Source: an uncultured Clostridia bacterium
GTDB lineage: Bacteria; Bacillota; Clostridia; Oscillospirales; Ruminococcaceae
NCBI GenBank assembly: GCA_947600065.1
Contig: CANQFZ010000018.1
Location: 1-37,289, forward strand
Length of the DNA stretch: 37,289 bases
Reading direction: 5' to 3'
The notes under the pieces were generated by a model. That model was given only the letters and a program-made list of their open reading frames with translations, was not told where the DNA came from and did not search any database. The position numbers were made by a program, and so were the translations under genes. Below are positions 7,254-37,004 of this stretch, one piece after another (within the stretch, counting starts at the first letter, position 1; the number at the start of each line of letters is the position of its first letter).

Positions 7254-7364
7254 ATTTCCTCCTTATTCCTTGCGGTAAATCTTTTTGCCGCGCAATTTTC
7301 CCGCAAAAACAAAAAGTGCGCAGCGTTGAAGCCGCGCACTTGTAAAAATGCAAGCTTCAATCAC

Positions 7365-20100: not shown

Positions 20101-21104
20101 TAATCGCCCCAGAGAGGAATGTCGTTTACGCAAAGCTTTTCGCCGAGAATTTCATTCTGCTCGGACTGAATGTCGGAAAGCGTCTTTTCTACTGCGGCTT
20201 TCTTTGTTGTGCCGTTTTCGTTGAGGGGATATTCGTCTGCCTCAGCCTTGTTGAGCACATCGCAGGTAGCGGAAGCGCCGTTTGCATCGAAGGTAATTTC
20301 AACCTTTCCGATGTTTGTAAACTGTGTTCCTGTCTGAACAACGGGGATAGAAACGCCGCTTTTTGTATATGTATTTTGTTCTACGGTGTGGCTGTGACCG
20401 TCGATCACTGCCGTTATTTCTTTAAGCTCGTCTTCCGAAAGACCGTCGAGCAGATCTTTGCTCGTGCAGCTTACTGCAGCCTCGCTGTCGCCGAGGTGGG
20501 TGATAAGAACGATAGCGTCGGTCTTATCTTTAAGCTTCGCTATCTCGTCTTTCGCCGCTTGTATCTCGTCGCCGAAAGTAACGCCCGTGAGTTTCGCGGG
20601 ATTTGTAGAAGTCGCGGTGTTCTTTGTGGTAATGCCGACAAAGCCTATTTTCTTGCCGCCTGCTTCTATAACCGCGCTGCTTTCAAGAAGGGCCTTTCCG
20701 TCCTTCATTACGTTTGCGCTGAGTATCGGGAACGCTGCCGCTTCTTCGAGCTTTTTGAGCTGATCCGTTCCGAAATCGAACTCATGGTTTCCCGCCGCCA
20801 TAACGTCATAGCCTGCGGCGTTCATCATTTCAATAACGTCCTCGCCCTGTGAAATTGTCGCAAAGGACGCGCCCTGCACTGCGTCGCCCGCGTCTACAAG
20901 AAGCGAGTTTACTGTAGACGCTTTCATTGCGGCAGCCTGCGCCATGCCTATGGCTGTTTTGCTTGTGCCGACAACGCCGTGAATGTCGTTTGTCGTAAAG
21001 ATGGTGACCGTTTCGGTATCAGCCGCGAATGCCCCCGCGGGCAGCAATGAAAATACCATTGCCACGGACACCAGTATCGACAATACTTTTTCTTTTAGTT
21101 TCAT
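17154..21104 (-). CDS. Wall-anchored 5'-nucleotidase / cyclic phosphodiesterase with long helical stalk
   Basis: A 1316-residue surface enzyme. Signal peptide 1-27 (cut after AGAFA). Calcineurin-like phosphoesterase domain about 31-290: D40 and H42 in TTNDIHG, D71/D74 in VDAGDAVQG, N106-H107 in GNHEFD, and a GHSHT motif. 5_nucleotid_C domain about 340-520 (ENGGGIGQTLPAGTVTRGDV). Then a small beta domain, and about 600 residues of charged, helix-rich sequence (about 640-1260) with no enzyme motif, probably a stalk or helical bundle. C-terminus: acidic EPEKDPEQDPEK linker, SPETG sorting signal, membrane segment, KKKSRSR. UshA-type enzymes are near 550 residues, so the stalk is the oddity. AAGGAG precedes the ATG. 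It likely salvages nucleosides outside the cell. Confidence 0.9.
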   Translation of the reverse strand: MKLKEKVLSILVSVAMVFSLLPAGAFAADTETVTIFTTNDIHGVVGTSKTAIGMAQAAAMKASTVNSLLVDAGDAVQGASFATISQGEDVIEMMNAAGYDVMAAGNHEFDFGTDQLKKLEEAAAFPILSANVMKDGKALLESSAVIEAGGKKIGFVGITTKNTATSTNPAKLTGVTFGDEIQAAKDEIAKLKDKTDAIVLITHLGDSEAAVSCTSKDLLDGLSEDELKEITAVIDGHSHTVEQNTYTKSGVSIPVVQTGTQFTNIGKVEITFDANGASATCDVLNKAEADEYPLNENGTTKKAAVEKTLSDIQSEQNEILGEKLCVNDIPLWGDYICWDYAESRIVETAYGDFVTDAFAEYAREFAENNGIDLPIIAVENGGGIGQTLPAGTVTRGDVLNAFNHGNMVEVYEVTPQMLRTALEIGLKMTGQDETGMLERESVSGSFLQAGGFSYSYDPAGATGEKVVDITLADGTKLDLNDNETKLLLATNNYVGTFNGIKDGTKVGELGGEDQIVMDYILANLKNGRLTYEITEPRIIIANDQSPETYTVTIPVQLEDKTAIPDTEFMISIDGEDGITVTTNENGEIEIELEKGAHVIWLRETTDEYSPVYVNNYSGTGTADTKEGYYKFSFTALGIEDYKAEVAQHIEDYAERNISDINEYLTYCKEDVAELAITRTEYLRDFALEKLADYNTYEEIGELYDEFVDGAEIMYEVAALNNVVEYYKAETEDYVNDGTMTREEADALIKTLEDIERDALEDIKNLPAEGIIDKSFEILDSAFNEIDKTIVDANKDMVKDEVTEYKDYFQKAVDDNPEWFEYAPEGKVDEVLNDIITKLDDLLKEYETLTDIDEQVKLYDDTINGILSEWAELNTLCAKARISEVTQNVTDIIKEAEEIDGKDRSDMKAAIEALKADAEKAVDALDDNDTVVKGNIAVEVMDAYIEVVDNFRTDVSAEYLEAFLVGVEKSYTDDIENFTMLTDEERVQYKKDLDEAIKSVRDEIATKTKDEIKKNIKKYEGTVNLAYTKPLATSIVRNAKATVEGLDYVTEEEKAEVLKLIEDNYAAVQKIIAENDVLNWEKTDELLGEIEDKSDDLWRKAVFLWVDKYALEEYDAAIKEFGPKCTYINQEQFEELRNYLKFATAIASVGMKLAVGTDDEVEKINYYGEKLQDMYDSTIFALFQSNAMYGVNAAADETTEAIKALAEKDGTDLSELTAAIEKLQEEAENALLGVETEFAFISDMDAVAALYDEIANIGAEYEAKIRAVLPEQEPEKDPEQDPEKSPETGFDMSAIAVLIALSGCFTVVLAKKKSRSR

Positions 21105-21216
21105 ACTTTCTCCTTTTTTTCATGATGAAATTCGCGCGTTGAAATTAAAAACGTGCATTTTCCCCGCAAAGGAAAACCCTGCCTGCCTCACCACCTTACA
21201 TCGAATTTACAATTGC

Positions 21217-21245
21217 ATTATACCACAAACTGTTTTATTTTGCAA
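21217..21245 (-). promoter_or_regulatory. Promoter of the nucleotidase gene
   Basis: Minus-strand TTGCAA (21245-21240) and TATAAT (21222-21217), spacer 17. It separates the nucleotidase from the peptide array that ends at 21262. Confidence 0.75.
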
Positions 21246-21261
21246 TAAGGCAATCATAAAA

Positions 21262-21492
21262 TTACATATTTTTCATAATTTCGCTGAGAACTTTCCTTGT
21301 TTTATCGAAAATATTCCCGCCCGCGACTTTATCAAGGTCTTCATCTGACATCTCACCGCTTGCATTAAGCTGACTGAAAAGCTCTTTTGCCTTTTCCTCG
21401 TCAAGTTCAATTCCGTTTTCTTTTGCAAGAGCGAGAATTTCATCAGAGGACTTCGCTTCTTTGAGCTTTGCTATAAGTTCTTCTTTGTTCAT
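21262..21492 (-). CDS. Nif11-type double-glycine peptide precursor A (last of array)
   Basis: 76 residues: a 59-residue leader ending DKVAGG and a 17-residue core NIFDKTRKVLSEIMKNM. The leader has the Nif11/NHLP hallmarks (ELIAKLKEAKS near the start, ELFSQLNASGEMSDEDLDKV before the GG). The expected cut is after GG by the C39 peptidase encoded at 27992. The core can form an amphipathic helix with a net positive charge, and it contains no Cys and one Ser. AAAGGAG precedes the ATG. Confidence 0.9.
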   Translation of the reverse strand: MNKEELIAKLKEAKSSDEILALAKENGIELDEEKAKELFSQLNASGEMSDEDLDKVAGGNIFDKTRKVLSEIMKNM

Positions 21493-21529
21493 ATGTTTAA
21501 GCTCCTTTCATGAGATGATAATCGGCTCT

Positions 21530-21751
21530 TTAAAAGAAGCCGCCGAAAAATTCGAGAAATTTGTCAAAAATGTTCCCGCCCGCGACTTTTTCGAGGTCGT
21601 CGTCCGAAAGTTCGCCGCTTGCATTAAGCTGACTGAAAAGCTCTTTAGCCTTATCTTCACTAAGTTCAATTCCGTTTTCTTTTGCAAGAGCCAGAATGTC
21701 GTCCACAGACTTAACTTCTTTCAGCTTGGAAATAAATTCTTCTTTGTTCAT
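21530..21751 (-). CDS. Nif11-type double-glycine peptide precursor B
   Basis: 73 residues: 59-residue leader ending EKVAGG and a 14-residue, very hydrophobic core NIFDKFLEFFGGFF. The first five core residues match precursor A. No Cys, Ser or Thr in the core, so lanthionine or azole chemistry is impossible there. AAAGGAG upstream. Its 3' half and upstream sequence are duplicated in the relic at 21784-21866. Confidence 0.9.
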   Translation of the reverse strand: MNKEEFISKLKEVKSVDDILALAKENGIELSEDKAKELFSQLNASGELSDDDLEKVAGGNIFDKFLEFFGGFF

Positions 21752-21783
21752 TTGTTTAAGCTCCTTTCATAAGGTGATACTCG

Positions 21784-21866
21784 GCTCTTTAAAAGAAGCC
21801 GCCGAAAAATTCGAGAAATTTGTCATAACTCTTTCCCACGCGACACTGTCGAGGTCGTCCAAAAGC
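21784..21866 (-). pseudogene. Decayed 3' end of an eighth precursor
   Basis: On the minus strand, the segment from about GAGCTTTTGGACGACCTCGA to TTCGGCGGCTTCTTTTAA is near-identical to the 3' end of precursor B (21530-21612), and the similarity runs on through the spacer into the ribosome site of B (21767 onward). Small indels shift the frame and destroy the VAGG motif; there is no leader start. It is the scar of a tandem duplication in the array. Confidence 0.75.
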
Positions 21867-22100
21867 TCACTGCTCCGCATAGCTCTTTTCCGCTATCTGT
21901 CTAAACCACTCGAGAAAGCCGATACCTCCCGCAACTTTGTCGAGGTCGTCGTCCGAAAGCTCGCCGCTTGCATTAAGCTGATTAAAAAGTTCTTTAGCCT
22001 TTTCCTCGTCAAGTTCAATTCCATTTTCTTTCGCTAGAGCGAGAATTTCATCAGAGGACTTTGCTTCTTTGAGCTTTGCTATAAGTTCTTCCTTGTTCAT
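21867..22100 (-). CDS. Nif11-type double-glycine peptide precursor C
   Basis: 77 residues: leader ending DKVAGG (identical to that of A over the first 39 residues) and an 18-residue core IGFLEWFRQIAEKSYAEQ. Amphipathic, net charge about -1, with no Cys. AAAGGAG ribosome site. Confidence 0.9.
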   Translation of the reverse strand: MNKEELIAKLKEAKSSDEILALAKENGIELDEEKAKELFNQLNASGELSDDDLDKVAGGIGFLEWFRQIAEKSYAEQ

Positions 22101-22123
22101 ATGTTTAAGCTCCTTTCGAGGGT

Positions 22124-22366
22124 TTAAACGTTGGGGTGTTGTTTATGGAACTGATCTAAACCTCTTGACAGCATATCCATAAACCCGCTGCCGCCCGCGA
22201 CTTTATCAAGGTCTTCATCTGACATCTCACCGCTTGCATTAAGCTGACTGAAAAGTTCCTTTGCCTTTTCCTCGTCAAGTTCAATTCCGCTTTCCTTTGC
22301 GAGAGCAAGAACGTCCTCTGCGGACTTTGCTTCTTTGAGCTTTGCAATAAATTCTTCTTTCTGCAT
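22124..22366 (-). CDS. Nif11-type double-glycine peptide precursor D
   Basis: 80 residues: leader starting MQKEEF and ending DKVAGG, and the longest core of the set, 21 residues (SGFMDMLSRGLDQF then HKQHPNV). Near neutral with two His. AGGGAG before the ATG. Confidence 0.9.
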   Translation of the reverse strand: MQKEEFIAKLKEAKSAEDVLALAKESGIELDEEKAKELFSQLNASGEMSDEDLDKVAGGSGFMDMLSRGLDQFHKQHPNV

Positions 22367-22450
22367 ACAACTTCACTCCCTTCGGTTTTTCACTGTTTTG
22401 TGATAACCGCCTTATCATTAGTCATTTGGTGTGAAAAACTGCTCGTCAAA

Positions 22451-22669
22451 TTATTCAAATTTCCTTTGGATAAGACTGGCATACATCACTAATCCGCCTG
22501 CGACCTTGTCGAGTTCGTCGTCCGAAATTTCGCCGCTTGCGTTAAGCTCGGCGAAAAGTTCCTTCGCCTTTTCCTCGTCAAGTTCAATTCCGTTTTCCTT
22601 TGCGAGAGCAAGAATTTCATCTGCGGACTTCGCTTCTTTGAGCTTTGCTATAAATTCTTCTTTGTTCAT
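22451..22669 (-). CDS. Nif11-type double-glycine peptide precursor E
   Basis: 72 residues from the ATG at 22669, which has AAGGAG nine bases upstream; the frame stays open further upstream but without a ribosome site. Leader ends DKVAGG; core is the shortest, LVMYASLIQRKFE (13 residues), net positive. Confidence 0.88.
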   Translation of the reverse strand: MNKEEFIAKLKEAKSADEILALAKENGIELDEEKAKELFAELNASGEISDDELDKVAGGLVMYASLIQRKFE

Positions 22670-22686
22670 AAGTTCAGGCTCCTTTG

Positions 22687-22911
22687 TTATTGTTTGAATA
22701 CCCAATCTAAATACTGCCGCATATTTGGACCAAGCTCATATCCGCCGGCAACTTTGTCGAGATTGTCGTCCGAAAGCTCGCCGCTTGCGTTTAACTCGGC
22801 GAAAAGCTCATTTTCTTCGTCAAGTTCAATTCCGTTTTCTTTTGCAAGAGCGAGGATTTCATCGGCGGACTTCGCTTCTTTGAGCTTTGCAATAAGTTCT
22901 TCTTTGTTCAT
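22687..22911 (-). CDS. Nif11-type double-glycine peptide precursor F
   Basis: 74 residues from ATG 22911 (GGAGG upstream); an open extension to 23013 is unlikely to be used. The leader is two residues shorter than its paralogues (DEENELF in place of DEEKAKELF), ends DKVAGG, and is followed by the core YELGPNMRQYLDWVFKQ. It lies 17 bp upstream of E. Confidence 0.88.
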   Translation of the reverse strand: MNKEELIAKLKEAKSADEILALAKENGIELDEENELFAELNASGELSDDNLDKVAGGYELGPNMRQYLDWVFKQ

Positions 22912-22985
22912 AAAGCCATACCTCCGTTTTTGGAGCCTGCTTCGGATATGTGCTGTCCGAAGCAGACACCGCGAATGTGAGCCTA

Positions 22986-23210
22986 TTATCTGCCAAACAG
23001 GCTGCCTACCCAATGCTTTATCGTGTCAACTATTCCGCCGCCCGCTACTGCTTCAAGCTCGTCGTCAGAAAGCTCGCCTGTCTGGTTGCTTATCATTTTA
23101 AACAACTCCTCAGCCTTGTCGTCAGCAAGCTCCAGCCCACATTCTTTTGCGATAGCCTTTATTTCGTCCACCGACTTCGCGTCCTTGACCTTGTTTACAA
23201 ATTCTTCCAT
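22986..23210 (-). CDS. Nif11-type double-glycine peptide precursor G (first of array)
   Basis: 74 residues with the most diverged leader (begins MEEFVNKVKDAKSVDEI, has a Cys in ECGLEL, ends EAVAGG) and a 16-residue core GIVDTIKHWVGSLFGR. The core pattern (G-hydrophobic-hydrophobic-D-x-x-K) recalls short helical antimicrobial peptides. AAGGAG upstream. First gene transcribed, directly behind the putative array promoter. Confidence 0.9.
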   Translation of the reverse strand: MEEFVNKVKDAKSVDEIKAIAKECGLELADDKAEELFKMISNQTGELSDDELEAVAGGGIVDTIKHWVGSLFGR

Positions 23211-23268
23211 AGCAACTTCTCCTTTTAAAATTTATTTGAAACGCACCTGCGTGGTTTCACCCGTTTAA

Positions 23269-23290
23269 ATTATACAGCTTAAAAAGCTGT
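23269..23290 (-). promoter_or_regulatory. Putative promoter and inverted-repeat operator of the peptide array
   Basis: Minus-strand TATAAT at 23274-23269 with no good -35 at the proper distance, as expected for an activated promoter. It adjoins a perfect inverted repeat ACAGCTT-TTT-AAGCTGT (23290-23274 on the minus strand), whose last base is shared with the -10 box. The binding protein is unknown; the LytTR regulator at 36040 is one candidate. Confidence 0.5.
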
Positions 23291-23309
23291 CGGACTGTAT
23301 ATACAACCC

Positions 23310-23570
23310 TATTTATGGTTCTTTTAAAACGCTGTTTCTCTCAATAACGTTTATTTGCCCTATCCCCCTGCCCCCTTCCCCGAAGGGGAAGTGGGAGAAT
23401 GTGGGGGCTGCCGTCCCCACGCCCCCGCTTTTAGAGGTTAGAGGTAAGAGGTAAGAAAAATACAGGTGGTTTGGAATATAAAGTTATTTGTTTTCCAAAG
23501 TAAGAGGCTGGAGACTAGAATACTTAACTCTCACCTCTAAAAAGCACTTTTTACACATATCTGTTTACCG
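23310..23570. repeat. GC-rich hairpins plus AGAGGTA heptads
   Basis: No gene in this gap. CCTTCCCC-GAA-GGGGAAG and GTGGGGGC-TGCC-GTCCCCAC hairpins (about 23372-23420) precede heptads TAGAGGT, TAGAGGT, AAGAGGT at 23432-23452 and a GGCTGGAGACTAGAAT module. It lies between the acyltransferase-like gene and the peptide array. Confidence 0.6.
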
Positions 23571-23582
23571 ATACGGTTCGCT

Positions 23583-24848
23583 TTATATCCTCATTTTCGG
23601 GCAGGAAAGCGCCTGCTCCGCGCCGCCCGAAACTTCAATTCCCGCGGCTTTAAGCTCGTTTATAAACGCCTCGGAGAGCGCGTTTCCCGAAAAATCCTGC
23701 ATAATATTCATAAAGAACTTTCCGTTCACCGCATTCACTTCTGCAATTACATGACTTCCCGACGGGTCAACATATGTTCTCACAGACTTTATGTAAGGCT
23801 CAAGAGCGCCGAGGGTGTTCATTCTTACATAGCTTAAAGTAAGGTTTACCAGCCTTAAATTCTCCTTAGACGCCGCTCTGAAAGCCTCGCGTATCTTTTC
23901 GAGATCGCCGAGGGCAAGTATCTTCCTTTCGTTGTAAAGCTTCCTTTGCAATGCGCTTTGCATATATTCGTCTGTGGACTGATATGCCGCCATCTGACGG
24001 CAGATACCGTTCAGCTTTTCGGGAGTTAATTCGCGCATTTCGTCCGTATAATTTAGGGCGATAACGCCTGTGATGTTGTTATGTGCAAGCGGCTTTTTCA
24101 AAAACGCGCGGTAGTTTTTCATAAGAACTATTCTGAACGGCGCGTCAAATTTTTCGCATATCCCGAACGTTGCTTTCGCGAACATATTTGCGAGCATAAT
24201 TGCTGGAGTAGAGCCGTTTTTCTTGCAATAGTCCACAAACTCCGCTTCCGAAAACTCTATTTCAAAAACGGTCTGCCTGCTCGTGTCTGTATCCATTATC
24301 CTATCCCATGTAACCGCAGAGGGCATATCGGGCTTTTTCGCATTGTCCTGCTGTTCCTCGGAAGTTTTAATATCAAGATAGGGGTCTCTTCTCTCCTCAT
24401 CAGAAACTGGCATTTCTGACGTGCGGATATTGTCGGCGGGGAGAGAGGTCTTATATTCTTCGGTTATGTAATAATAGAGCGTTGTTTTTATAAGCTCCAT
24501 AATTCCCGTAGCGTCCGTTATGGAATGTATCATGTCGAAATAAACCGTATCTCCGAAATAGTTTACGGCGAGGGCATGAAAGTTCGATTCTTCGGAAAGA
24601 AGCGTAACGGGCTCGGAACTGTTTGTAATAACGATAGGCTCGTCATTCGGAACGACCGAATGCAAAAGCTCGTCTTTCAGAACAAATTTCACCGAAAAGT
24701 AATCATAACGTTTTATCGCGATATCCACGGCTTTTCTCAAAGCCTTTTCATCTACCGCGTCAATAAGTTTTACGGCTATTCTTACGGTGTGACGGCAGTT
24801 GTTTGTAGAGCGATAAAATCCCGATATTCCCGAAGGGTTGTTTTTCAT
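23583..24848 (-). CDS. Condensation/acyltransferase-fold protein
   Basis: 421 residues, cytoplasmic. The N-terminal half resembles the CoA-dependent acyltransferase superfamily (alcohol acetyltransferase, WS/DGAT, NRPS condensation domain): GISGFYRSTNN near the start and HSITDATG near residue 108, a variant of the HHxxxDG active-site motif with the second His present and the first replaced by Ile-His context (MIHSITDATG). The C-terminal half has the expected MKNYR and YTDEM blocks. AAAGGA supports the ATG. It follows the ECF sigma gene by 24 bp, so they are likely co-transcribed. Substrate unknown; acylation of the neighbouring peptides is only a hypothesis. Confidence 0.65.
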   Translation of the reverse strand: MKNNPSGISGFYRSTNNCRHTVRIAVKLIDAVDEKALRKAVDIAIKRYDYFSVKFVLKDELLHSVVPNDEPIVITNSSEPVTLLSEESNFHALAVNYFGDTVYFDMIHSITDATGIMELIKTTLYYYITEEYKTSLPADNIRTSEMPVSDEERRDPYLDIKTSEEQQDNAKKPDMPSAVTWDRIMDTDTSRQTVFEIEFSEAEFVDYCKKNGSTPAIMLANMFAKATFGICEKFDAPFRIVLMKNYRAFLKKPLAHNNITGVIALNYTDEMRELTPEKLNGICRQMAAYQSTDEYMQSALQRKLYNERKILALGDLEKIREAFRAASKENLRLVNLTLSYVRMNTLGALEPYIKSVRTYVDPSGSHVIAEVNAVNGKFFMNIMQDFSGNALSEAFINELKAAGIEVSGGAEQALSCPKMRI

Positions 24849-24872
24849 ATGAGTTTATCCTTTCAAATAGTT

Positions 24873-25376
24873 TCATTCAAAAAGCCCCGTCTTTTCCAAA
24901 AGCTTTCTCAGCTTTTTAAGGGCGGCGTATTGCAGAAAACGAACGTTCGCATAGCTTATTCCTACCTTTTCAGCAGTTTCTTTCGCGGAATATCCTCGGT
25001 AAAACCGAAAGACGATTATTTTACGCTCACGTTCGGGGAGCTGTTCGAGAGCGTCTGCAAGGGCTTCGAGCGTTTCCTCGGAAAGCGGTTTTTCCTCCGA
25101 CGAGGAAAACAACTCCCGAAGCTCATCGTCATCTGCCGAAATCGGCGTTTTTTCAAGGCTTCTGTAGTAGTCTATGACGGTGTTTCGCGTTATGGCGTAG
25201 AGCCAAGTGCTTACGGCGGCGCGTTCGGGGTCGTAGCTTTCCAAAGCGGATATGGCGTTTAAAAACACCTGCTGTACGATATCCGCGCGGTCGTGTTCGT
25301 TTCTGACATGAGAACATATGTAGCGCTCGACCTTTTCGCGGTAGGCATTGTAGAGTTCTTCGGGAGTTATCTTCAT
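24873..25376 (-). CDS. ECF-type RNA polymerase sigma factor
   Basis: 167 residues, the usual ECF size. Region 2 at about 5-75 includes HDRADIVQQVFLNAI and STWLYAITRNTVIDYYR; region 4 at about 105-160 includes LPERERKIIVFRFYRGYSAKETAEKVGIS and the helix VRFLQYAALKKLRKLL. An acidic linker joins them. The start overlaps the small upstream gene by four bases (ATGA). It probably directs transcription of its own operon, including the acyltransferase-like gene; no ECF promoter could be assigned with confidence. Confidence 0.9.
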   Translation of the reverse strand: MKITPEELYNAYREKVERYICSHVRNEHDRADIVQQVFLNAISALESYDPERAAVSTWLYAITRNTVIDYYRSLEKTPISADDDELRELFSSSEEKPLSEETLEALADALEQLPERERKIIVFRFYRGYSAKETAEKVGISYANVRFLQYAALKKLRKLLEKTGLFE

Positions 25377-25558
25377 TTTTTCGGATCGCTCCCCGACTTT
25401 CTAATGTCCGTTTCACCCGCGGCGTTTATATCAAGCTCGCTGTCCTCAAGCAGAACGCCGTCGTCTTCGCAGTCGGCTATTATTTTATCGAGGCGCTTGT
25501 TTGAGGCGAAACGCTGAAAGTCAAACAGCCTGCGAATTGTATCTTCAATCTTTTCCAT
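25373..25558 (-). CDS. Small companion protein of the sigma factor (possible anti-sigma)
   Basis: 61 residues from ATG 25558, preceded by TTGGAG; a longer frame to 25594 has no ribosome site. N-terminal helix MEKIEDTIRRLFDFQRF, then an acidic segment (CEDDGVLLEDSELDINAAG). No membrane segment. The ATGA overlap with the sigma gene and the order suggest it controls the sigma factor, but that is inference from position only. Confidence 0.6.
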   Translation of the reverse strand: MEKIEDTIRRLFDFQRFASNKRLDKIIADCEDDGVLLEDSELDINAAGETDIRKSGSDPKK

Positions 25559-25656
25559 ATTTACTCCAAACGGCAGATCCTGTTTTAAAGGCAACTGTTC
25601 TTTATCTTGCGTTTCACTTATTTATACGGAGAAAATTCTTTTTTGTTAGAGGTTAT

Positions 25657-25760
25657 AAAAAATTTTCAGCTTATGTAAAACAAGGTCGTGTTTCAGACTG
25701 TAGAGAAAGTCCCAGACGCTGACAACGCAGATGGGGCTTTATCTACAGTCTGAATTTTTT
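25657..25760. repeat. MITE-like palindromic repeat, copy 3 (lacks inner hairpin)
   Basis: Outer arms AGACTGTAGAGAAAGTCCCA and TGGGGCTTTATCTACAGTCT as in copy 2, but the 40-bp inner hairpin is reduced to about 18 bases (GACGCTGACAACGCAGA). The right end runs into the stop codon of the ABC gene at 25760, so it probably forms that transcript's 3' end. Confidence 0.75.
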
Positions 25761-27973
25761 TAGAAGGCGGTCGTCTGTCCCACATATTCCGTATCGTCGA
25801 GCCGCTGGCGCGCGACAAGCTCCGCGAACTTGCCGTTCTTTTCAATCAATTCATTATAAGAACCGTCCTCGACAATTTTCCCTTTTTCAAGGTATATTAT
25901 CCTGTCGCACTGTTTAATGGTCGAGAGCCTGTGCGCTATGACAATTCTCGTGCATTTAAGCCTGTCGAGCGACTGTGAAACGGTTTTCTGGGTGATGTTG
26001 TCGAGTGCGCTTGTCGCTTCGTCAAACATAAGTATCTTCGGCTTCGGCGCAATAGCTCTCGCTATCATAAGGCGCTGGCGCTGACCGCCCGAAACTCCGC
26101 CGCTTCCCTCGGAAATGAGGGTGTTCATGCCCATAGGCATACGGCGTATGTCCTCGGCTATGCCCGAAAGCTCCGCCGCCTCCCATGCGTCATCTAGAGT
26201 GAGCCACGGCGCGGAGATGGTTATGTTTGAAAAGATGTCGCCCTGAAAGAGCTTTCCGTTCTGCATGACTGTTCCTATTCTGCGCCTGAGCGATTTTAGG
26301 TCAATGCCCGCTATGTCCTTTCCGTCGTAATAAATTGCGCCCTTCTGCGGCGTTTCAAATCCGAGCATAAGCCGCATGAGCGTGGATTTTCCGCAGCCTG
26401 TCGAGCCGACAATAGCCACATACTGCCCCGGGCGTATCTTCAGCGACAAGTCGTCCACAACATTCGGCATATTTTCGTTATAACGGAAAGAAACGTTGTT
26501 AAGCTCTATTCCGCCCGAAAGGCGCGTTATGACCTGCTTGCCCTCGGAAACTTCGGGAACGCTTTCGAGAATGGGCTTTGAGAGATCGAGAACGGGCTTT
26601 ATGTTCGCGGCGGTAAGAGCAATGTCCGCGAGCGCGACAAACGCCCCCGAAACAAGACCGTATGCGGTGTTGAAGGCATAATAATCCGCGACCGAAACGC
26701 CGCTCGAAACAGCCAGATAGTACATAGCAAACGTTCCCGCAAGGGTTATAAAGGTAGTTATGACCTTGTTGTATTTGATTATTGCGGGAGGGTTATAGGT
26801 GACTTTCGACTGTTCGGCATAGAGCTTTCCCCACCTCGCAAAAGCGCGTTTTTCCGCGCCCGAAAGCTTTATCTTCTGAACGCCCGTAATCAGCGAATAG
26901 CTCATACCGCTTTCCTTTGCGCATAGTTCAAGTCTTTTCTTTGATACCTTCATCTGCGCCAATGCCGTAATAAATGAAACAACGACCGTTATCGCCACAA
27001 CAACAAGCGCGGGAACGACCAGCGCGGGCGCAAAGTCGAATATCTGCGTTATGTAAATAAGCGAGAACACCGAAGTAAGTCCCGTGGATAAGACCGTGTC
27101 AACTATCATCGTGCAGAGCATATTTATATACTGCGTTCTTGTATAAAGGTCGCCCGAGCTGTAGTCTTTAAAAAACGCCGCAGGGAGCGAGAGAACTCTT
27201 GCCATTGCCGCCGCCTGAACTGTAACGTCCATTTTCGTCCTTATCCTCGAGATTATGAGGTTCTTTACCGCGCCGAAAAGCGCAGTCGATACTGTTAAGC
27301 AAAGCAAGAACACCGCTATCGAACCGAGCAGCGTCATATCTCCGCTTTCTACTACCGTTCCGAATAAAAGCTGATTTAATTTCGGAGCGAACATTCCGAT
27401 AAGCGTTACAATAAGCGTAGCGATTGCCGCAAGCGCATAATCCGCGGGAGAAAGTATCTCGGCGATATATCTCATAAGCGAACCTATCGTCATCTTTTTC
27501 AGCGGGAACGGCTTATAAAAAGCGACGGCTTCTCTTTCAAAAAGATCCTCGTTCTTTTTGGAAACTCTAACGCTCTTTCCCGTTTCAATATCAAGAAACG
27601 AATATCCCGAAAAACCCTTAGGAACCAGCGCAACTACCGTTCCGTCCGATTTTCTCACACCGAGCATTGCGCCCATTGCGTCCTTATACCAGCCCTTTTC
27701 AAGCTCTACGGTTCTTCTCATTATGCCGTGGGGGCGCATAAGAAATTCGAGCCGCTCGTTCATGTCCTTTATTTCGTCAGGAACGTCGCGCGTTTTAACA
27801 TGATAAAACCTTAATATCTCGTCTATGGCGTCCTTTGCGCGGCTCTGCTCGTCGCCGAGCGCGGCGGAAACGCGCGCGCCAGTAACTGCGTCGGAGATAC
27901 CTAAAAACGCTTCTTCAAAGATGTTTTGGTCGTGCTCGTTGCGCTGTTTTATCTGTTCGTCAAACCAACCCAT
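25760..27973 (-). CDS. NHLM-type peptide export ABC transporter without peptidase (ABC2)
   Basis: 737 residues. The N-terminal 160 residues have no C39 peptidase motif, as in the second ABC protein of NHLM bacteriocin systems. Six membrane segments at about 170-450; ATPase with Walker A GSTGCGKST, signature VSGGQRQR and Walker B ILMFDEATSALD. AAGGAG before the ATG; 18 bp after the peptidase ABC gene, so co-transcribed. It likely forms the export complex with its neighbours, possibly as a heterodimer with ABC1. Confidence 0.9.
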   Translation of the reverse strand: MGWFDEQIKQRNEHDQNIFEEAFLGISDAVTGARVSAALGDEQSRAKDAIDEILRFYHVKTRDVPDEIKDMNERLEFLMRPHGIMRRTVELEKGWYKDAMGAMLGVRKSDGTVVALVPKGFSGYSFLDIETGKSVRVSKKNEDLFEREAVAFYKPFPLKKMTIGSLMRYIAEILSPADYALAAIATLIVTLIGMFAPKLNQLLFGTVVESGDMTLLGSIAVFLLCLTVSTALFGAVKNLIISRIRTKMDVTVQAAAMARVLSLPAAFFKDYSSGDLYTRTQYINMLCTMIVDTVLSTGLTSVFSLIYITQIFDFAPALVVPALVVVAITVVVSFITALAQMKVSKKRLELCAKESGMSYSLITGVQKIKLSGAEKRAFARWGKLYAEQSKVTYNPPAIIKYNKVITTFITLAGTFAMYYLAVSSGVSVADYYAFNTAYGLVSGAFVALADIALTAANIKPVLDLSKPILESVPEVSEGKQVITRLSGGIELNNVSFRYNENMPNVVDDLSLKIRPGQYVAIVGSTGCGKSTLMRLMLGFETPQKGAIYYDGKDIAGIDLKSLRRRIGTVMQNGKLFQGDIFSNITISAPWLTLDDAWEAAELSGIAEDIRRMPMGMNTLISEGSGGVSGGQRQRLMIARAIAPKPKILMFDEATSALDNITQKTVSQSLDRLKCTRIVIAHRLSTIKQCDRIIYLEKGKIVEDGSYNELIEKNGKFAELVARQRLDDTEYVGQTTAF

Positions 27974-27991
27974 ATATACACGCTCCTTTCT

Positions 27992-30175
27992 TTATTCATT
28001 GGAAACGAGCTGCGTATAGTAGCCGTTCTTTGCATATAATTCCTCATGAGTTCCGCGCTCAACGACCTTTCCGTGATCCATAACTATAATTTCGTCGCAG
28101 TCGCGTATGGTGGATAATCTGTGCGCAACGACAATGCAGGTTATACCTCTGTCCTTTATCGAGCGCACAACGTCGTATTCCGTCTTTGCGTCAAGCGCGC
28201 TCGTCGCTTCGTCAAGTATGATTATTGTAGGGTCCTGCGCCAATACTCTGGCTATTTCAATGCGCTGGCGCTGACCGCCCGAAAAATCTTTTCCGCCCTC
28301 GGTTATCATATAGCTATAGCCGCCGTCGCGCTTCATAATGTCCTCGTGGAGCTGTGCGTCCTTTGCGGCAAGTATCATCTCGAAATCTTCTATGGAAGAA
28401 TCCCACATCTTTATGTTGTTGCGGACAGTGTCCTCAAACAGAATTATGTCCTGGTCGACTACCGCAAGAGAGCCCGTAAAGACGCTTCTGTCAATGTCCT
28501 TCATCGGCTTTCCGTCAAAGAGTATCTCCCCGCTCCAGGGCTGATAAAGTCCAGAAATGAGCTTTGAGAGCGTGGATTTTCCGCAGCCCGAGCCGCCCAC
28601 AAATGCAACTCTGCTCCCGGGTTTCAGCGAAAGGCTGAAGTTTTCAATAAGCGGTTCGCCGAGACGCGAATATCCGAAAGTAACGTTTTTCATTTCTAGC
28701 GCGCCCGAAAGCTTGTCATATTCCGCGTCTTCTTTAATGCCGCTCTCGTTTTCATAGTTCACGTCCGTAGGATATTCCATAACGTCCTCAATGCGCTCCA
28801 TTTGCGTGCGCATTTCCTGGATAGTTTCGCCCGCGGTTATAAGCGTCATTGCGGGCTGTGTAAACGCCGTCAGGAATCCCTGAAACGCCATGACCATACC
28901 GACGGTAAACTGTCCGTTTATCGTAAAGAAAACGCCGAGAATAAGAACTATGGTGTTTGTAAGCTGAGTTACAAGGCTCGGTATCATTCCGAGATATTCA
29001 TTCAGCTTTGCAAATTTTATCTGCTGGGTATTTACGCTCGCCTGATATCCCGACCATTTTTCATAATATCCGTTTTCCGCGCCGCTCGACTTTATTGTTT
29101 CTATCATTTCAATTCCCGCGACGGTAGAGCCCGCGAGCTTCGCCTCGTCGCGCATCTGAACACGTGTTATGTTCACGCGCTTTTTGGAGATAACGTGTGA
29201 AAGAATTAAATTGAGTATTATAGAAGCCACGCCTATAAGCGTTAAAAACCAGCTGTACTGTATCATTACCACAAGATAGAAAATGAGCATAGCCGCGTTT
29301 AATACCAGCGGAGCGAATGTGTTTACAAAATTTTTCGCTATCTCGGAGTTTGCCCCTTGGCGCTGTTGGATATCGCCCGCCATGCGCTGGGAGAAAAACT
29401 CCATGGGCATTCTCAGTATCTTCCAGATAAAATTAGTGTCGCCGACTACGGCGAGCTTTCCTTCTATCTTAAACTTCGTTCTTGCCTCGACAAACGCTGT
29501 GATTATCTGTACTAACGAAACCGCCGCTAAAATTCCCAGAAAAGGATAGAACCATTCGGGGTCTTCTTTTGTCAGAAGCCTGTCGAGGAATATCCTCGAA
29601 AACGCGGGCTGGATAATTCCTATAAGAGATGTTATAACAGTCGTAAGTACAACAAACGCCACCGCCGAGCCTGCTCCCACGAGGCGCTTTGCGGCAAACG
29701 ACAAAACGCTCTTCGGTTTTCCTCCCGTTTCGAAGCTTTCTGTCGGCTCAAACATAAGGCAGATGCCCGTAAAGCTCTTGTCGAAAGTGTCCATTGAAAC
29801 GGTATAATTTCCGTTTGCGGGGTCGTTTAATACCGCCTTGTTGCCTTTAAATCCGCAGAGAACGACAAAGTGATTGAAATTCCAGTGAATGATACATGGG
29901 AACTTTCCCTTTTCTTTAAGCTGCTCGGGCTCATAGCGATAGCCCTTTGCGGTCATTCCATAGCTTCTCGCGGCTTTCAGAACGTTCTTTGCGCTCGAGC
30001 CGTCGCGCGAAACGCCGCAGTCCGCGCGCACCTGTTCAAGCGGTATCCACTTTCCGTAATACGCGAGTATCATCGTAAGCGAAGCCGCTCCGCATTCGAG
30101 CGCTTCCATTTGCATAACCACAGGCACCTTAGCCACGCCGTTTGTCACAGGCTGTTTTATTTTCTTAGCGGACAT
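27992..30175 (-). CDS. NHLM-type C39 peptidase / ABC exporter (ABC1)
   Basis: 727 residues. The N-terminal C39 protease cleaves leaders after double glycine: Q22 and C28 in MQMEALECGAAS, H102 in HWNFNHFVV, D118 in LNDPANG. Six membrane segments follow (about 165-430), then an ATPase with Walker A GGSGCGKST, signature FSGGQRQR and Walker B IIILDEATSALD. Start chosen at ATG 30175, five bases after GGAGGTG; the in-frame TTG at 30199 lacks a site. All catalytic residues are present, so it should trim and export the GG-leader peptides at 21262-23210, 5 kb downstream on the same strand. Confidence 0.94.
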   Translation of the reverse strand: MSAKKIKQPVTNGVAKVPVVMQMEALECGAASLTMILAYYGKWIPLEQVRADCGVSRDGSSAKNVLKAARSYGMTAKGYRYEPEQLKEKGKFPCIIHWNFNHFVVLCGFKGNKAVLNDPANGNYTVSMDTFDKSFTGICLMFEPTESFETGGKPKSVLSFAAKRLVGAGSAVAFVVLTTVITSLIGIIQPAFSRIFLDRLLTKEDPEWFYPFLGILAAVSLVQIITAFVEARTKFKIEGKLAVVGDTNFIWKILRMPMEFFSQRMAGDIQQRQGANSEIAKNFVNTFAPLVLNAAMLIFYLVVMIQYSWFLTLIGVASIILNLILSHVISKKRVNITRVQMRDEAKLAGSTVAGIEMIETIKSSGAENGYYEKWSGYQASVNTQQIKFAKLNEYLGMIPSLVTQLTNTIVLILGVFFTINGQFTVGMVMAFQGFLTAFTQPAMTLITAGETIQEMRTQMERIEDVMEYPTDVNYENESGIKEDAEYDKLSGALEMKNVTFGYSRLGEPLIENFSLSLKPGSRVAFVGGSGCGKSTLSKLISGLYQPWSGEILFDGKPMKDIDRSVFTGSLAVVDQDIILFEDTVRNNIKMWDSSIEDFEMILAAKDAQLHEDIMKRDGGYSYMITEGGKDFSGGQRQRIEIARVLAQDPTIIILDEATSALDAKTEYDVVRSIKDRGITCIVVAHRLSTIRDCDEIIVMDHGKVVERGTHEELYAKNGYYTQLVSNE

Positions 30176-30191
30176 AGCACACCTCCGCACC

Positions 30192-30662
30192 TCATTCAAA
30201 CAAAAAGGAAATAGGAGAAACGCTGTCGGTTATTACCGAAGCCTCGTAAACGCCGTTTTGGAGCGCAGTATTAAGCTCTACTGCGTATACCCATTCTCCC
30301 GCGGTAAACTGTCCGATATGCATTGCATATTCCGAAAAGCTCCCGTCCGCCGAAACGGGCTCGGAGGGAACTGCTTTTACGGCATATTCTTTTTCGCCTA
30401 TGCGGACTGTATCACCCGCTTCGATTTTCGAAATGTCCGCTTCTTTTACATAGCAGACGGTCTTTTCCGTATCGGAAACAACGACGGTATTCACCTTTGT
30501 TTCGAGCTTTCCGACGATCCCCCAGACAATAAAGCCTGCGAGCAGGACAATGATCGCCGCGAGAGTAAGCCAGATACCGGGATTTGTGACCTTTATGTAA
30601 TCATTGAGCTGTTCGGGAGACGATACCCTCTCCATGCTTTTTTCTCTGAAAATAGAAGCCAT
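30192..30662 (-). CDS. Short HlyD-like export accessory protein
   Basis: 156 residues, far shorter than the ~400 of typical NHLM HlyD proteins. N-terminal cytoplasmic stretch (SPEQLNDYIKV), one membrane segment at about 31-50 (IWLTLAAIIVLLAGFIVWG), then a beta-rich barrel-like domain (about 60-155) with VCYVKEADISKIEAGDTVRI. The long coiled hairpin of classic adaptors is missing, which fits a cell with no outer membrane. AGGAGG before the ATG; the gene lies 16 bp upstream of ABC1. Confidence 0.82.
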   Translation of the reverse strand: MASIFREKSMERVSSPEQLNDYIKVTNPGIWLTLAAIIVLLAGFIVWGIVGKLETKVNTVVVSDTEKTVCYVKEADISKIEAGDTVRIGEKEYAVKAVPSEPVSADGSFSEYAMHIGQFTAGEWVYAVELNTALQNGVYEASVITDSVSPISFLFE

Positions 30663-30708
30663 ATCATTTCCTCCTGTGTTCAGTCCGATTTTTTGGCGGT
30701 TCCGCGCT

Positions 30709-32154: not shown

Positions 32155-32213
32155 AATATAAAACTGCACCTCCTGCGGCAATTTTACTGCCGCAAATTAA
32201 AAAATTTATCTTA

Positions 32214-32265
32214 TAGATTTCAGTTTGTACAAAAACTCCTGTTTCAGACTGTATATTATAGATTT
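32214..32265. repeat. MITE-like repeat, copy 4 (left-end fragment)
   Basis: TTTCAGTTTGTACAAAAAC and CCTGTTTCAGACTGTA match the left end of copies 2 and 3, but the right half is absent. It overlaps the last codons of the anti-sigma kinase gene (stop at 32256-32258), so the repeat may have supplied the gene's end. Confidence 0.55.
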
Positions 32266-32663
32266 TTTGTTATTTTAAGAATATTCTGCCCGTCTTTGTA
32301 TTCATATTCAACGCCGTCCATGCTCTTTTTTACCATATATATCCCTAAGCCCCCTATTTCCCTTTCCTCTGCGGAAAGAGCGGTGTCGGGGTCGGCTTTT
32401 TTAAGAGGGTCATAAGGAACGCCGTTGTCTATAAATGTGATAACTACCGAGAGCGGTTCTTCCGAAAGCTCCACTCTGACCGTCGCCGAACCGACATTTT
32501 TTTCATATGCATAGTGAGCGATATTCCCGAAAAGCTCGTCTATCGCAATATCTATCTGCATCTGCGACTTTATCGAACAGCCGTGTTCTTCGAGCTGTTC
32601 GTTTACGAAATCCGTAACAACGGGGATATTGTCAACTGTCGCGTCAATTGTCAGTTCCTTCAT
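32256..32663 (-). CDS. Anti-sigma-type serine kinase (RsbW/SpoIIAB-like)
   Basis: 135 residues with a GHKL ATPase fold: N-box IAIDELFGNIAHYAY near residue 40, G1 motif FIDNGVPYDP and G2 motif GGLGIYMVKKSMD. In partner switching such kinases phosphorylate a STAS antagonist and bind a sigma factor. It overlaps the phosphatase gene by 20 bp, with its GGAG site inside that gene. A STAS protein is encoded just upstream, but no cognate SigB/SigF-type sigma is seen in the window. Confidence 0.87.
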   Translation of the reverse strand: MKELTIDATVDNIPVVTDFVNEQLEEHGCSIKSQMQIDIAIDELFGNIAHYAYEKNVGSATVRVELSEEPLSVVITFIDNGVPYDPLKKADPDTALSAEEREIGGLGIYMVKKSMDGVEYEYKDGQNILKITKNL

Positions 32664-34272
32664 CTTTAAGCTCCATTCTGCTCTTGTATTCGAGGCACAA
32701 CATCGTTATGTCGTCAAACTGCGGCGCTTCTCCCACAAACAAGTCAATATCCTCTTTTACCTTCGGCAGAAGCTCTGCGGGAGAGCTGTCCTTGTTTTTA
32801 TTCAGCACTTCTCCGAGCCGCTCCATTCCGTATAATTTGTTTTGGGCATTTGTGGCTTCGGTCACTCCGTCGGTATACTGAAAGACTTTGTCGCCGACAG
32901 ACAACGTCATGCTCCCCGCGCGGTATTTCATGCCTTCCATTCCCGCGAGCACAAAGCCCGCTCTTATCTTCTGCGCTTCATAGCTTTCTCCCGCGCGGCA
33001 GATAAACGGCATTTCGTGTCCTGCGTTTACATAGTTAAATTCGCCCGTCACAAGGTCAAGAACTCCCTCAAACGCCGTTATAAACAAGCCCTCGCTGTTA
33101 GACTGACAAAGCAGGTCGTTTACTTCTGTAAACACCTCTCCGAGACTTCTTCCCGACCGGGTGTGGTCTTTTATCAGCGTTTTTCCTATCACCATAAACA
33201 GCGCCGCGGGAACGCCCTTTCCCGAAACGTCCGCCATAACTATTGCAAGGTGCCTTTCGTCCACCATAAAGAAATCGTAGAAATCGCCGCCGACTTCCTT
33301 TGCGGGGGTCATTGTCGCATAGATGTCAAATTCCTTTCGCTCGGGGAATGCGGGGAATATACACGGGAGCATTGATTTCTGGATATGCGTCGCAACGTCG
33401 AGCTCCGCGCCTATGCGCTCTCTTTCGGCGGTGACGCGGCTGAGGTTGTTTATATATTCGTTCAGTTCCTTTACCATCTGCCCGAAGCCGTCCGCAAGGT
33501 CGCCTACCTCGTCTTTTGTTTTAACGTCTACGGTAAATTCTTCGAGATCGTCCATATGCCCGCTTACAAGCCCCGTAACGGCATTGTGCAGAGTAAATAG
33601 CGGACGGACAAGTATCTTCTTGATATAGATATAGTAAATGAGCGAAGATATAATAAGTATAACGAGCGTAACTATAAGCGTAATTACCGATAAAACATCG
33701 CTGTTTTGGTTCATGCTTTCGGTGGACATACTTGCCGTGACATAAGCTGCGATGTTATTGTCGCTGTCATAAACGGGAACATATGCCTTGGTGAAGTTTT
33801 CCGTTATCAAAACGTTTTCGTCAATTGCCGCGCCTTTAACGTCCGCCGCCTTTTTCATAAACTCCATTTCGCCCTCGGACAGCTCGACTATATCGCCCGT
33901 CTTGTGGTTCTCCCCGTCAGCGTCGCCCGTATACCATATGTAAACGAGGTTATCGCCTTCGGGCTTTGCCACATACAGATATTTAAACCTCACTTCGTCT
34001 TTTACGGTCGTAAGATAATCGGCAATTTCGTTATAATAATCGTCCTTCTCGCCGACCTTTCCGTTGTCGTAATACTGCGCGACACGGTCGCCGTCAATGA
34101 CGTAAGAGGACATATAGGCGTTGTCGTAGGTTATCCACGAATAATACGTGTACATAAAGCCGCCGAAGATTATCATTATTACAGACAAAAGCGCAACTAC
34201 CAATACTACCGCCATAATAACCAGACCCAGCAGCAGCTTTGGCTGTAGACCAAATCTCCGTTTCTTTTTCAT
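32644..34272 (-). CDS. Membrane-bound SpoIIE/RsbU-type PP2C phosphatase
   Basis: 542 residues: membrane segment at about 14-40, an extracytoplasmic sensor domain (about 41-200), a second segment at about 203-225, a HAMP-like linker and coiled helix (EYINNLSRVTAERERI), and a C-terminal PP2C domain (about 315-530) with PAKEVGGDFYDFF, VMADVSGKGVPAALFM and the final QFDDITMLCLEY. It should dephosphorylate the STAS protein in response to an external cue. GGAGAG before the ATG. Confidence 0.9.
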   Translation of the reverse strand: MKKKRRFGLQPKLLLGLVIMAVVLVVALLSVIMIIFGGFMYTYYSWITYDNAYMSSYVIDGDRVAQYYDNGKVGEKDDYYNEIADYLTTVKDEVRFKYLYVAKPEGDNLVYIWYTGDADGENHKTGDIVELSEGEMEFMKKAADVKGAAIDENVLITENFTKAYVPVYDSDNNIAAYVTASMSTESMNQNSDVLSVITLIVTLVILIISSLIYYIYIKKILVRPLFTLHNAVTGLVSGHMDDLEEFTVDVKTKDEVGDLADGFGQMVKELNEYINNLSRVTAERERIGAELDVATHIQKSMLPCIFPAFPERKEFDIYATMTPAKEVGGDFYDFFMVDERHLAIVMADVSGKGVPAALFMVIGKTLIKDHTRSGRSLGEVFTEVNDLLCQSNSEGLFITAFEGVLDLVTGEFNYVNAGHEMPFICRAGESYEAQKIRAGFVLAGMEGMKYRAGSMTLSVGDKVFQYTDGVTEATNAQNKLYGMERLGEVLNKNKDSSPAELLPKVKEDIDLFVGEAPQFDDITMLCLEYKSRMELKDEGTDN

Positions 34273-34306
34273 GTTCCGTTTCTCTCCGTTATTCGGTTTT
34301 ATTTGC

Positions 34307-34603
34307 TTATACTATCGTCAATATATCCACAAAGCCCGTTATTTCAAACACTTCCATTATTGTGTCGTTTACGTTTTTTATTGTCATGCTGCCCTGCTTG
34401 TTCATGACTTTCTGCGCCGCAAGCAGAACGCGAAGCCCCGCCGAGGAAATATATTCAAGCCCCGCAAAATCAAACCTCAAGTCCGTTATGTCGTTTATAA
34501 TGTGCTTCAGCTCGCCCTCGAGCTGGGGAGCGGTGGTTGTGTCGAGCCTTCCCTCAAGAGCTATATCAAGCTCCGAGCCGTTCTGATTTTTAGTTATTGT
34601 CAT
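34307..34603 (-). CDS. STAS-domain anti-sigma factor antagonist
   Basis: 98 residues, RsbV/SpoIIAA-like: EGRLDTTTAPQLEGEL near the start and the phosphorylation site ISSAGLRVLLAA, with Ser at about 58. GGAGG upstream. It is encoded 34 bp before the phosphatase and together with it and the kinase forms a complete partner-switch set. Confidence 0.92.
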   Translation of the reverse strand: MTITKNQNGSELDIALEGRLDTTTAPQLEGELKHIINDITDLRFDFAGLEYISSAGLRVLLAAQKVMNKQGSMTIKNVNDTIMEVFEITGFVDILTIV

Positions 34604-34660
34604 ATTGACCTCCGTTATAATGTTTAGTATTCGGGGATTTCCCGCAATAAACGAAAAACG

Positions 34661-36777: not shown

Positions 36778-36920
36778 AACTTTTCCTCCCGAGCTCGGCT
36801 AAGTAAATTGCCGAAGAATAAAGGTAGTTAGTTTATATCGTTTCGGGATAATGTCCGTATAAACATTGTCCGCGTTTTATTGCAAATACCAAAAAGGCAC
36901 ACAATATCCATTCTGAGATT

Positions 36921-36949
36921 ATTATAGCATAACATTTCGTTTTTTTCAA
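36921..36949 (-). promoter_or_regulatory. Promoter of the regulator operon
   Basis: Minus-strand TTGAAA (36949-36944) and TATAAT (36926-36921), spacer 17. It may drive the regulator, the kinase, the partner-switch genes and, by read-through, the transporters, since gaps are short and no clear terminator interrupts them. Confidence 0.75.
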
Positions 36950-36960
36950 CCCAACAGTTT

Positions 36961-36994: not shown

Positions 36995-37004
36995 ATAGGA
37001 AATG

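Follow-up and report, generated by a model that had tools for sequence, protein, structure and literature searches.

A tandem array of seven Nif11-leader peptide genes beside an NHLM exporter in an uncultured Clostridia bacterium: candidates for unmodified secreted peptides

The first 37,289 nucleotides of contig CANQFZ010000018.1 (assembly GCA_947600065.1) from an uncultured member of the Ruminococcaceae, hereafter called the window, carry an array of seven minus-strand precursor genes for short peptides with Nif11-type leaders (21262–23210; Table 1). The same strand carries genes for an NHLM peptide exporter, an extracytoplasmic function (ECF) sigma factor and a putative partner switch. The precursors are 72–80 residues in length. 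Their leaders comprise 58, 57, 59, 59, 59, 59 and 59 residues (precursors 1 to 7 in that order), all ending in VAGG, and are followed by cores of 16, 17, 13, 21, 18, 14 and 17 residues. This agrees with the initial annotation, made from the sequence alone, which had described seven tandem precursors with leaders of 57–59 residues and seven different cores. A purine-rich stretch of the ribosome-binding-site type precedes the start of every gene, the gaps within the array measure 17–115 nt, and a repeat search independently recovered the tandem unit (seven copies, family D2). Among the paralogues the leaders are 54–95% identical and the cores 19% on average.

In the whole source genome (2.22 Mb, 98.6% complete) TIGR03798 has seven matches, every one inside this array. 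Assignment of the leaders to that family, suggested at the outset, held for six precursors (33.6–37.6 bits; curated cut-off 32.3 bits), while precursor 1, at 30.1 bits, falls below the cut-off. Neither of the two precursors tried reached the cut-off of Pfam PF07862. Because a decayed eighth copy lies between precursors 5 and 6, the array apparently gains members by duplication and loses them by decay. A mobile-element origin was considered and rejected, precursor 1 having no match in plasmids or phages.

Table 1. Features of the window discussed in the text
Feature	Position	Strand	Remarks
Precursor 7	21262..21492	minus	core NIFDKTRKVLSEIMKNM; TIGR03798 37.6 bits; core same in G006, variants in G009 and G002
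Precursor 6	21530..21751	minus	core NIFDKFLEFFGGFF; TIGR03798 37.6 bits; core same in G006
Decayed eighth copy, 3' part of a precursor-6-like gene	21760..21859	minus	88% identity over 101 nt to 3' part of precursor 6
Precursor 5	21867..22100	minus	core IGFLEWFRQIAEKSYAEQ; TIGR03798 37.3 bits
Precursor 4	22124..22366	minus	core SGFMDMLSRGLDQFHKQHPNV; TIGR03798 36.6 bits
Precursor 3	22451..22669	minus	core LVMYASLIQRKFE; TIGR03798 36.9 bits
Precursor 2	22687..22911	minus	core YELGPNMRQYLDWVFKQ; leader two residues shorter than most; TIGR03798 33.6 bits; core same in G006
Precursor 1	22986..23210	minus	core GIVDTIKHWVGSLFGR; conserved member; TIGR03798 30.1 bits, under cut-off
Inverted repeat TGAAAC...GTTTCA	23237..23259	minus	upstream of precursor 1; kept across six loci compared
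HxxxD acyltransferase-like protein, 421 aa	23583..24848	minus	between ECF gene and array; probably neighbour or accessory
ECF sigma factor	24873..25376	minus	TIGR02937 112.9 bits (cut-off 42.9)
61-residue protein, no named family	25373..25558	minus	overlaps ECF gene by 4 nt
ECF-type promoter-like motif TCTAACA-N15-CGTAT	25624..25650	minus	precedes gene of 61-residue protein
NHLM ABC transporter without peptidase (TIGR03797)	25760..27973	minus	725.8 bits (cut-off 709.4)
NHLM ABC transporter with C39 peptidase (TIGR03796)	27992..30199	minus	943.3 bits (cut-off 853.3)
Short HlyD-like adaptor, 156 aa	30192..30662	minus	TIGR03794 40.9 bits (cut-off 156.2)
RsbW-like anti-sigma/kinase	32256..32663	minus	PRK04069 44.5 bits, below cut-off of 145
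HAMP-SpoIIE membrane phosphatase	32644..34272	minus	PF07228 149.1 bits; HAMP 22.5, below cut-off of 25
STAS anti-sigma antagonist	34307..34603	minus	PF13466 50.8 bits

The exporter genes lie upstream of the array and on its strand. The claim that matching NHLM exporters are present was well founded, since both ABC subunits pass the cut-offs of their models (TIGR03796 and TIGR03797). The full HlyD adaptor of TIGR03794 is not found here; the short adaptor-like protein matches just the first 51 of the 421 positions of that model. For comparison we used the best 80 of at least 590 related exporter loci in GTDB, many of them without full flanks, and as a control one stretch per genome from 40 of 46 genomes, taken over the first 18 kb of contig 2 or 3 (six of the stretches are shorter than 18 kb), which is not a random draw. 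The locus profiles were trained on the exporter loci themselves. Loci and genomes other than that of the window are given L and G numbers. The profile of the HlyD-like adaptor matches in all 80 loci, and in 70 of them its gene is immediately upstream of that of the C39 transporter.

The C39 domain of the window is identical to the LahT150 protease domain (PDB 6mpz) at 108 of 146 positions. According to the study on LahT150, that protease cleaves Nif11 leaders carrying very diverse cores, and depends on Leu-12, Leu-7 and Val-4 of the leader (PMC6363468). In all seven leaders of the window position -7 is Leu and position -4 is Val; position -12 is Leu in four, Met in two and Ile in one. Given the LahT150-like C39 domain and the matching leader residues, the predicted cleavage after VAGG and subsequent export are the best-supported steps of the system. 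A GG leader together with a C39 ABC exporter, the combination known from class II bacteriocins, is present.

As first reported, Cys is absent from all seven cores and Ser and Thr together number 0–2 per core. Net charge is near neutral (-1 to +2). Three genomes of the same genus, G006, G009 and G002, keep the order of the locus and carry five, two and three precursors respectively, plus fragments; one of the five in G006 has a shortened leader. Between the window genome and these array-keeping sisters the two ABC transporters are 98–99% identical. Precursor 1 is identical in the four genomes, with 0 non-synonymous and 3–12 synonymous differences in pairwise comparison. Four cores of the window are unchanged in G006, and three of their leaders differ at 4–9 aligned positions. 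Cores resembling that of precursor 1 recur as GIVDTIKKWVGGLFGR in L089, GIIDTVKEWFGSLFGK in L096 and GIVDTVKEWFGSLFGK in L091. A second core family (NIFDK...) and a third ([YF]ELGPNMR...) also span species; the cores of precursors 3, 4 and 5 were not met again in the other loci whose arrays were read. Because precursor 1 is conserved with synonymous changes only and similar cores occur in more distant loci, the array is, as far as sequence comparison goes, a set of maintained products with turnover and not a random library. The original description as a library of seven cores is right in that the seven differ, but several belong to families kept across species.

Related arrays offer further variations. 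Locus L091 encodes the seven-residue core MSIWTYH three times in one array (20145–21153) and its relative L092 encodes it twice (19872–20328), as if dosage of this tiny peptide mattered. Genome G015, of the same genus as the window (L076–L080 and L088), has 24 Nif11 matches spread over several contigs, and four matches to TIGR03796. The inverted repeat upstream of precursor 1 differs by a single change in L089, and in L096 its middle is longer. An RNA hairpin at this place was not convincing, with fold z-scores of -1.3, -0.3 and -1.8 in three loci. Short dispersed repeats at 23300–23460 and 37114–37289 match other intergenic sites in sister genomes, and one of them sits in the gap ahead of the array, which is wider in the window than in G006.

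The initial annotation had seen no modification enzyme and had suggested mining the wider genome for one. No LanM (DUF4135) was found in the genome, where the named controls were silent too, though the same model detects LanM at 5e-100 in one of 46 other genomes (those of the 80 loci with a Nif11 match). YcaO likewise gave no match, with 5 of 14 controls positive. A single SPASM protein was found, identified as the SCIFF maturase by TIGR03974 (683.6 bits; cut-off 425), and it presumably serves its own substrate. For these three classes the claim survives, yet it had overlooked the HxxxD acyltransferase-like gene beside the array. Pfam scans of 14 window proteins gave no match to a GNAT family, the enzyme type of the selidamides, this neighbour being of the HxxxD kind. 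Class membership of the locus is mixed, judged on these sequence criteria: the definitions by leader and by ABC exporter apply, and those of the lanthipeptides do not, there being neither a LanM in the genome nor a Cys in any core. As for an enzyme acting on the core, which would make the products ribosomally synthesized and post-translationally modified peptides (RiPPs), the acyltransferase-like neighbour has a candidate role.

Nif11-like open reading frames (ORFs) are found in 46 of the 80 related loci, 14 of which have in the flank available a radical SAM protein of the main cluster (one BLAST cluster from 17 loci, its SPASM domain confirmed by Pfam for the member in L132 only). Out of 157 such ORFs in the 80 loci, 119 cores could be parsed by pattern, and the other 38 were left out of the core counts. 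Cys-bearing cores make up 26 of 32 parsed precursors in loci with the radical SAM protein versus 35 of 87 in loci without it; the association has P 7e-5 counted per precursor and only P 0.07 per locus. Long zinc-ribbon-like cores, with motif variants like CKYCSYEKGLWLCNN, follow Nif11 leaders in six loci, three with a main-cluster radical SAM protein in the available flank (L111, L118, L132) and three without (L117, L127, L150). Genome G122, that of L125, has several LanM (DUF4135) matches close together on contig C241; it also has an NHLM locus, in which a Nif11 precursor is accompanied by a radical SAM protein and an ECF factor.

The 421-residue protein is the sole candidate tailoring enzyme noticed directly beside the array. 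It is probably an HxxxD acyltransferase; residues H108, D112, G115, N245 and R247 are invariant in its family. The window protein itself is below every Pfam cut-off, and one of ten homologues tried, that in G059 (L023), passes the cut-off of PF07247 (AATase, alcohol acetyltransferase). Against solved structures the family gave nothing below E 0.13. Homologues occur in 7 of the 80 exporter loci, six of them on the same strand within 6 kb, and in none of the 40 controls, a difference that is not significant (P 0.09).

The sister genomes G040, G042 and G001 lack the block of HlyD, NHLM, 61-residue protein and ECF genes and the array, and TIGR03798, the 61-residue protein and TIGR03796 were not found elsewhere in any of the three. 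They retain the CstA gene, an intact acyltransferase-like gene, and the kinase and regulator genes discussed below, the STAS-SpoIIE-RsbW genes being partly or wholly lost. What remains in G040 also includes the 3' end of the ECF gene, together with the sequence ahead of precursor 1. For all three genomes the alignment breaks off at one point inside the ECF gene (24917–24918). This remnant and the shared end point indicate that the difference is a deletion and not an empty site. The array is also missing at this place in G008, where the contig ends inside the acyltransferase-like gene. Since the acyltransferase-like gene is kept where the exporter, ECF factor, array and partner switch are lost, it is probably not essential to the system, which argues against its being the dedicated modifying enzyme. 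A co-regulated modifying enzyme encoded just outside the array would have told against the initial annotation; a candidate enzyme does adjoin it upstream, but the sister deletions argue that it is separate.

Two regulatory modules accompany the exporter. Iterated profiles found the 61-residue protein, for which there is no Pfam or NCBIfam match, in 23 of the 80 exporter loci, all of which also have an ECF gene, and in none of the 40 controls. ECF genes as such are present in 25 of 80 loci versus 4 of 40 controls (P 0.012). Among 100 relatives, the window genome included, nine carry the 61-residue protein, one match being weak and partial; all eight strong carriers have TIGR03796, which is found in 15 of the 100 (Fisher 3e-8, or 3e-7 counting the weak one). 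The promoter-like motif ahead of its gene has a single match in the genome, and the reversed control none. Ten of the 80 GTDB loci have a version shortened by one base, which in L098 and L099 stands 57 nt ahead of a Nif11 precursor. We considered whether the 61-residue protein mimics the leaders and rejected the idea, which we retain as no more than a lead. Its C-terminal LxDxxL..NAAG scores 8–23 on the leader matrix (16 copies) versus at least 27 for leaders. The window copy scores 12.3, and the PurL, 5'-nucleotidase and ECF proteins of the window reach 11.9. The scores of the 61-residue copies exceed most shuffles, and hhalign gives a probability of 2.9%. A secreted 5'-nucleotidase-like protein is encoded beside the array (17154–21104), and similar genes lie beside an ECF gene and precursors in the more distant loci L079 (11298–13025) and L082 (3000–4817); its profile has matches in six of the 80 exporter loci and in none of the 40 controls, a difference that is not significant.

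The second module is the STAS-SpoIIE-RsbW partner switch. STAS is found in 45, RsbW in 42 and SpoIIE in 43 of the 80 exporter loci, as against 1, 1 and 2 of the 40 controls (P 1e-9 to 6e-8). As an independent background, the curated SpoIIE model gave about 96 matches in 43 genomes of the genus, some two per genome. Where all three genes occur the commonest order is STAS-SpoIIE-RsbW-HlyD-NHLM1 (10 loci), and the window has the same order except for an inserted CstA gene. HlyD-NHLM1 alone was seen in the stretch counted in 29 loci, and 11 SpoIIE matches are on the opposite strand. The linkage of related exporters to this switch, and to an ECF-paired 61-residue protein, is new. RsbW as the partner of the ECF factor was rejected, for the two modules are found together no more often than chance predicts; being independent, they do not require RsbW to be the anti-sigma factor of this ECF protein. 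Elsewhere, a MATE transporter encoded in L096 (3268–5028) carries a fused RsbW-like ATPase domain (PF13581) and is of a BLAST cluster present in 8 of the 88 loci clustered, and L106 encodes a large DUF3089 protein (3967–7341), of a cluster present in 10 of those 88.

We suggest that the array encodes linear, unmodified secreted peptides of a class II-like kind, the Nif11 leader serving only as a tag for export and cleavage, and put the probability of this at roughly 60%. We favor it because the leaders offer what a LahT150-type C39 peptidase needs, namely a hydrophobic residue at each of positions -12, -7 and -4 and the final GG, and stand beside an exporter with a very close C39 domain. The partner switch would gate the system on an outside cue, and the ECF factor would drive its own operon, that is, the genes of the 61-residue protein, the ECF factor and the acyltransferase-like protein, and then, by read-through, the array. 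The C39 domain would cut the precursors after VAGG. Peptides of 13–21 residues would leave the cell through the two NHLM ABC subunits and the short HlyD adaptor. These most likely act extracellularly as amphipathic peptides resembling class II bacteriocins or pheromones, with one fixed core (precursor 1) and partners that come and go by duplication and loss. In a bolder form of this proposal, gut Clostridia would have a self-contained export of unmodified helical peptides, gated by a partner switch and an ECF factor held by the 61-residue protein; that protein would mimic the C39 docking motif of the leader, and the cell would read exporter occupancy to set production. We regard this extended form as improbable.

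Several observations weigh against the proposal of unmodified peptides. Only in three of the seven cores, those of precursors 4, 6 and 7, does the helical hydrophobic moment exceed that of shuffles at P<0.01 (combined P over the seven 1.8e-6), and mean hydrophobicity ranges from -0.18 to 0.47, so that the earlier characterization of the cores as helical and hydrophobic holds only in part. Class II bacteriocins usually have an immunity gene; between 21105 and 23582 there is no ORF of more than 37 aa mainly outside the precursor genes, and no obvious immunity gene in the array. The genome-wide enzyme search covered LanM, YcaO and SPASM proteins, other classes of modifying enzyme not being searched genome-wide, and the acyltransferase-like gene could modify the peptides. 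At least two of STAS, SpoIIE and RsbW occur in 29 loci with a Nif11 ORF and also in 14 loci where none was found, so the partner switch goes with the exporter and not with the arrays. ECF factor and partner switch are found together in 12 of 80 loci, which is no association (P 0.63). Lastly, the losses in G040, G042 and G001 are one history and not three independent ones, as these genomes form one group in the CstA tree, joining the system-bearing L089 (support 100/99 for both; midpoint root); the tree of the acyltransferase-like gene does not resolve them.

Three other explanations may be set against this proposal. The peptides might be mainly cell-to-cell signals, like competence- or bacteriocin-inducing peptides, read by the GHKL histidine kinase (PF14501) and LytTR regulator encoded at 34661–36777. 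Cys-free cores of 13–21 residues, a GG leader, a C39 ABC transporter with an HlyD-like accessory protein and a kinase-regulator pair nearby would all fit such a role, as would the strong conservation of the precursor-1 core, and homologues of the kinase (15 of 80 loci versus 0 of 40 controls, P 0.002) and of the regulator (21 of 80 versus 3 of 40, P 0.016) are enriched at exporter loci. We nevertheless hold this to be a possible but doubtful reading. Both genes are kept in all three genomes that lost the peptides, which speaks against reception of these peptides as the sole role of the kinase. In only 1 of the 15 loci is the kinase gene on the same strand within 6 kb, and seven different cores are many for one receptor. 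Paired LytTR-type sites are not above chance in 20901–37289, where the one site found lies inside the second ABC gene and 0.6 are expected. The kinase gave nothing at E 0.001 against solved structures.

It is also conceivable that the acyltransferase-like protein acylates the peptides, for instance at Lys, Ser or the new N-terminus, giving lipopeptides by a route unlike the GNAT one of the selidamides. Its gene adjoins the array on the upstream side and shares its strand, its family has invariant residues with one member over the PF07247 cut-off, and its homologues are seen at exporter loci and in no control. They are, however, restricted to 7 of 80 loci without significant enrichment, the acyltransferase fold is a putative one, and the gene is intact in all three sisters that have no exporter, ECF factor or array, all of which makes acylation unlikely. 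That the array is a relic of a modified-peptide system whose enzyme is gone, its genes decaying without a product, is more remote still. A decayed precursor copy, the varying gene number among sisters (7, 5, 3 and 2, plus fragments) and the deletion of the whole system in one sister group would suit decay. The synonymous-only changes in precursor 1 across four genomes, the cores unchanged in G006 where three leaders differ and the near-identical transporters speak for maintenance, and we consider a relic very improbable.

Nif11/NHLM arrays are usually viewed, by way of their enzymes, as modified RiPPs. If linear unmodified products are indeed made, a branch exporting short peptides without an enzyme would escape that enzyme-based approach, and its products could be obtained directly by peptide synthesis. 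The linkage of the exporter to a partner switch and to the ECF/61-residue pair likewise offers a concrete, testable picture of the control that gut Clostridia may exert over peptide warfare or signalling. Class II bacteriocins and the streptococcal competence-stimulating (CSP) and bacteriocin-inducing (BIP) pheromones are GG-leader peptides that stay unmodified and leave the cell through a C39 ABC transporter and its accessory protein, as proposed here. They differ from the window in their short leaders, as against Nif11 leaders of 57–59 residues, and the window has a two-ABC NHLM exporter, no immunity gene seen, and ECF and partner-switch genes alongside. A GHKL kinase and a LytTR regulator, candidates for a pair of the CSP/BIP type, are present here, but kept in genomes without the peptides.

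Haft et al. (2010) defined N11P (TIGR03798) and likened its leaders to class II leaders (PMC2887384). The window shares with that family the leader type, the VAGG end, paralogous arrays and the NHLM exporter, and departs from it in its short, Cys-free cores. A genome-mining study of anaerobes called Nif11/NHLP cores rich in Cys, Ser and Thr (PMC4289311), and the term Nif11 does not occur in the main text of the Hungate1000 survey (PMC13289728). Among the papers listed by searches of the open-licence literature we found no description of this Nif11 arrangement, and none linking such exporters to a partner switch or SpoIIE. The statement that this class is seldom described holds in part, but the class II likeness of N11P leaders and comparable cyanobacterial clusters (PMC3140520) had already been reported. 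The latter, described by Wang et al. (2011), are exporter-precursor clusters, one group of which is without the extra modification genes of another. They resemble the window in combining a C39 ABC transporter, HlyD and dense precursor arrays, and differ in phylum and in cores rich in Gly, Cys, Ser and Thr, with no partner switch or ECF pair reported in the text available (PMC3140520). The selidamides and nostolysamides likewise have Nif11-type leaders and an acyltransferase beside the precursors, but use GNAT and LanM enzymes where the window has an HxxxD AATase-like protein with a candidate role (PMC13060382). The lah cluster of Lachnospiraceae C6A11 is a lanthipeptide operon, whereas no LanM was found in the window genome; it resembles the window in its C39 domain, which is that of LahT150 compared above, and in having an array, with nine Nif11-leader precursors whose cores are diverse (PMC6363468).

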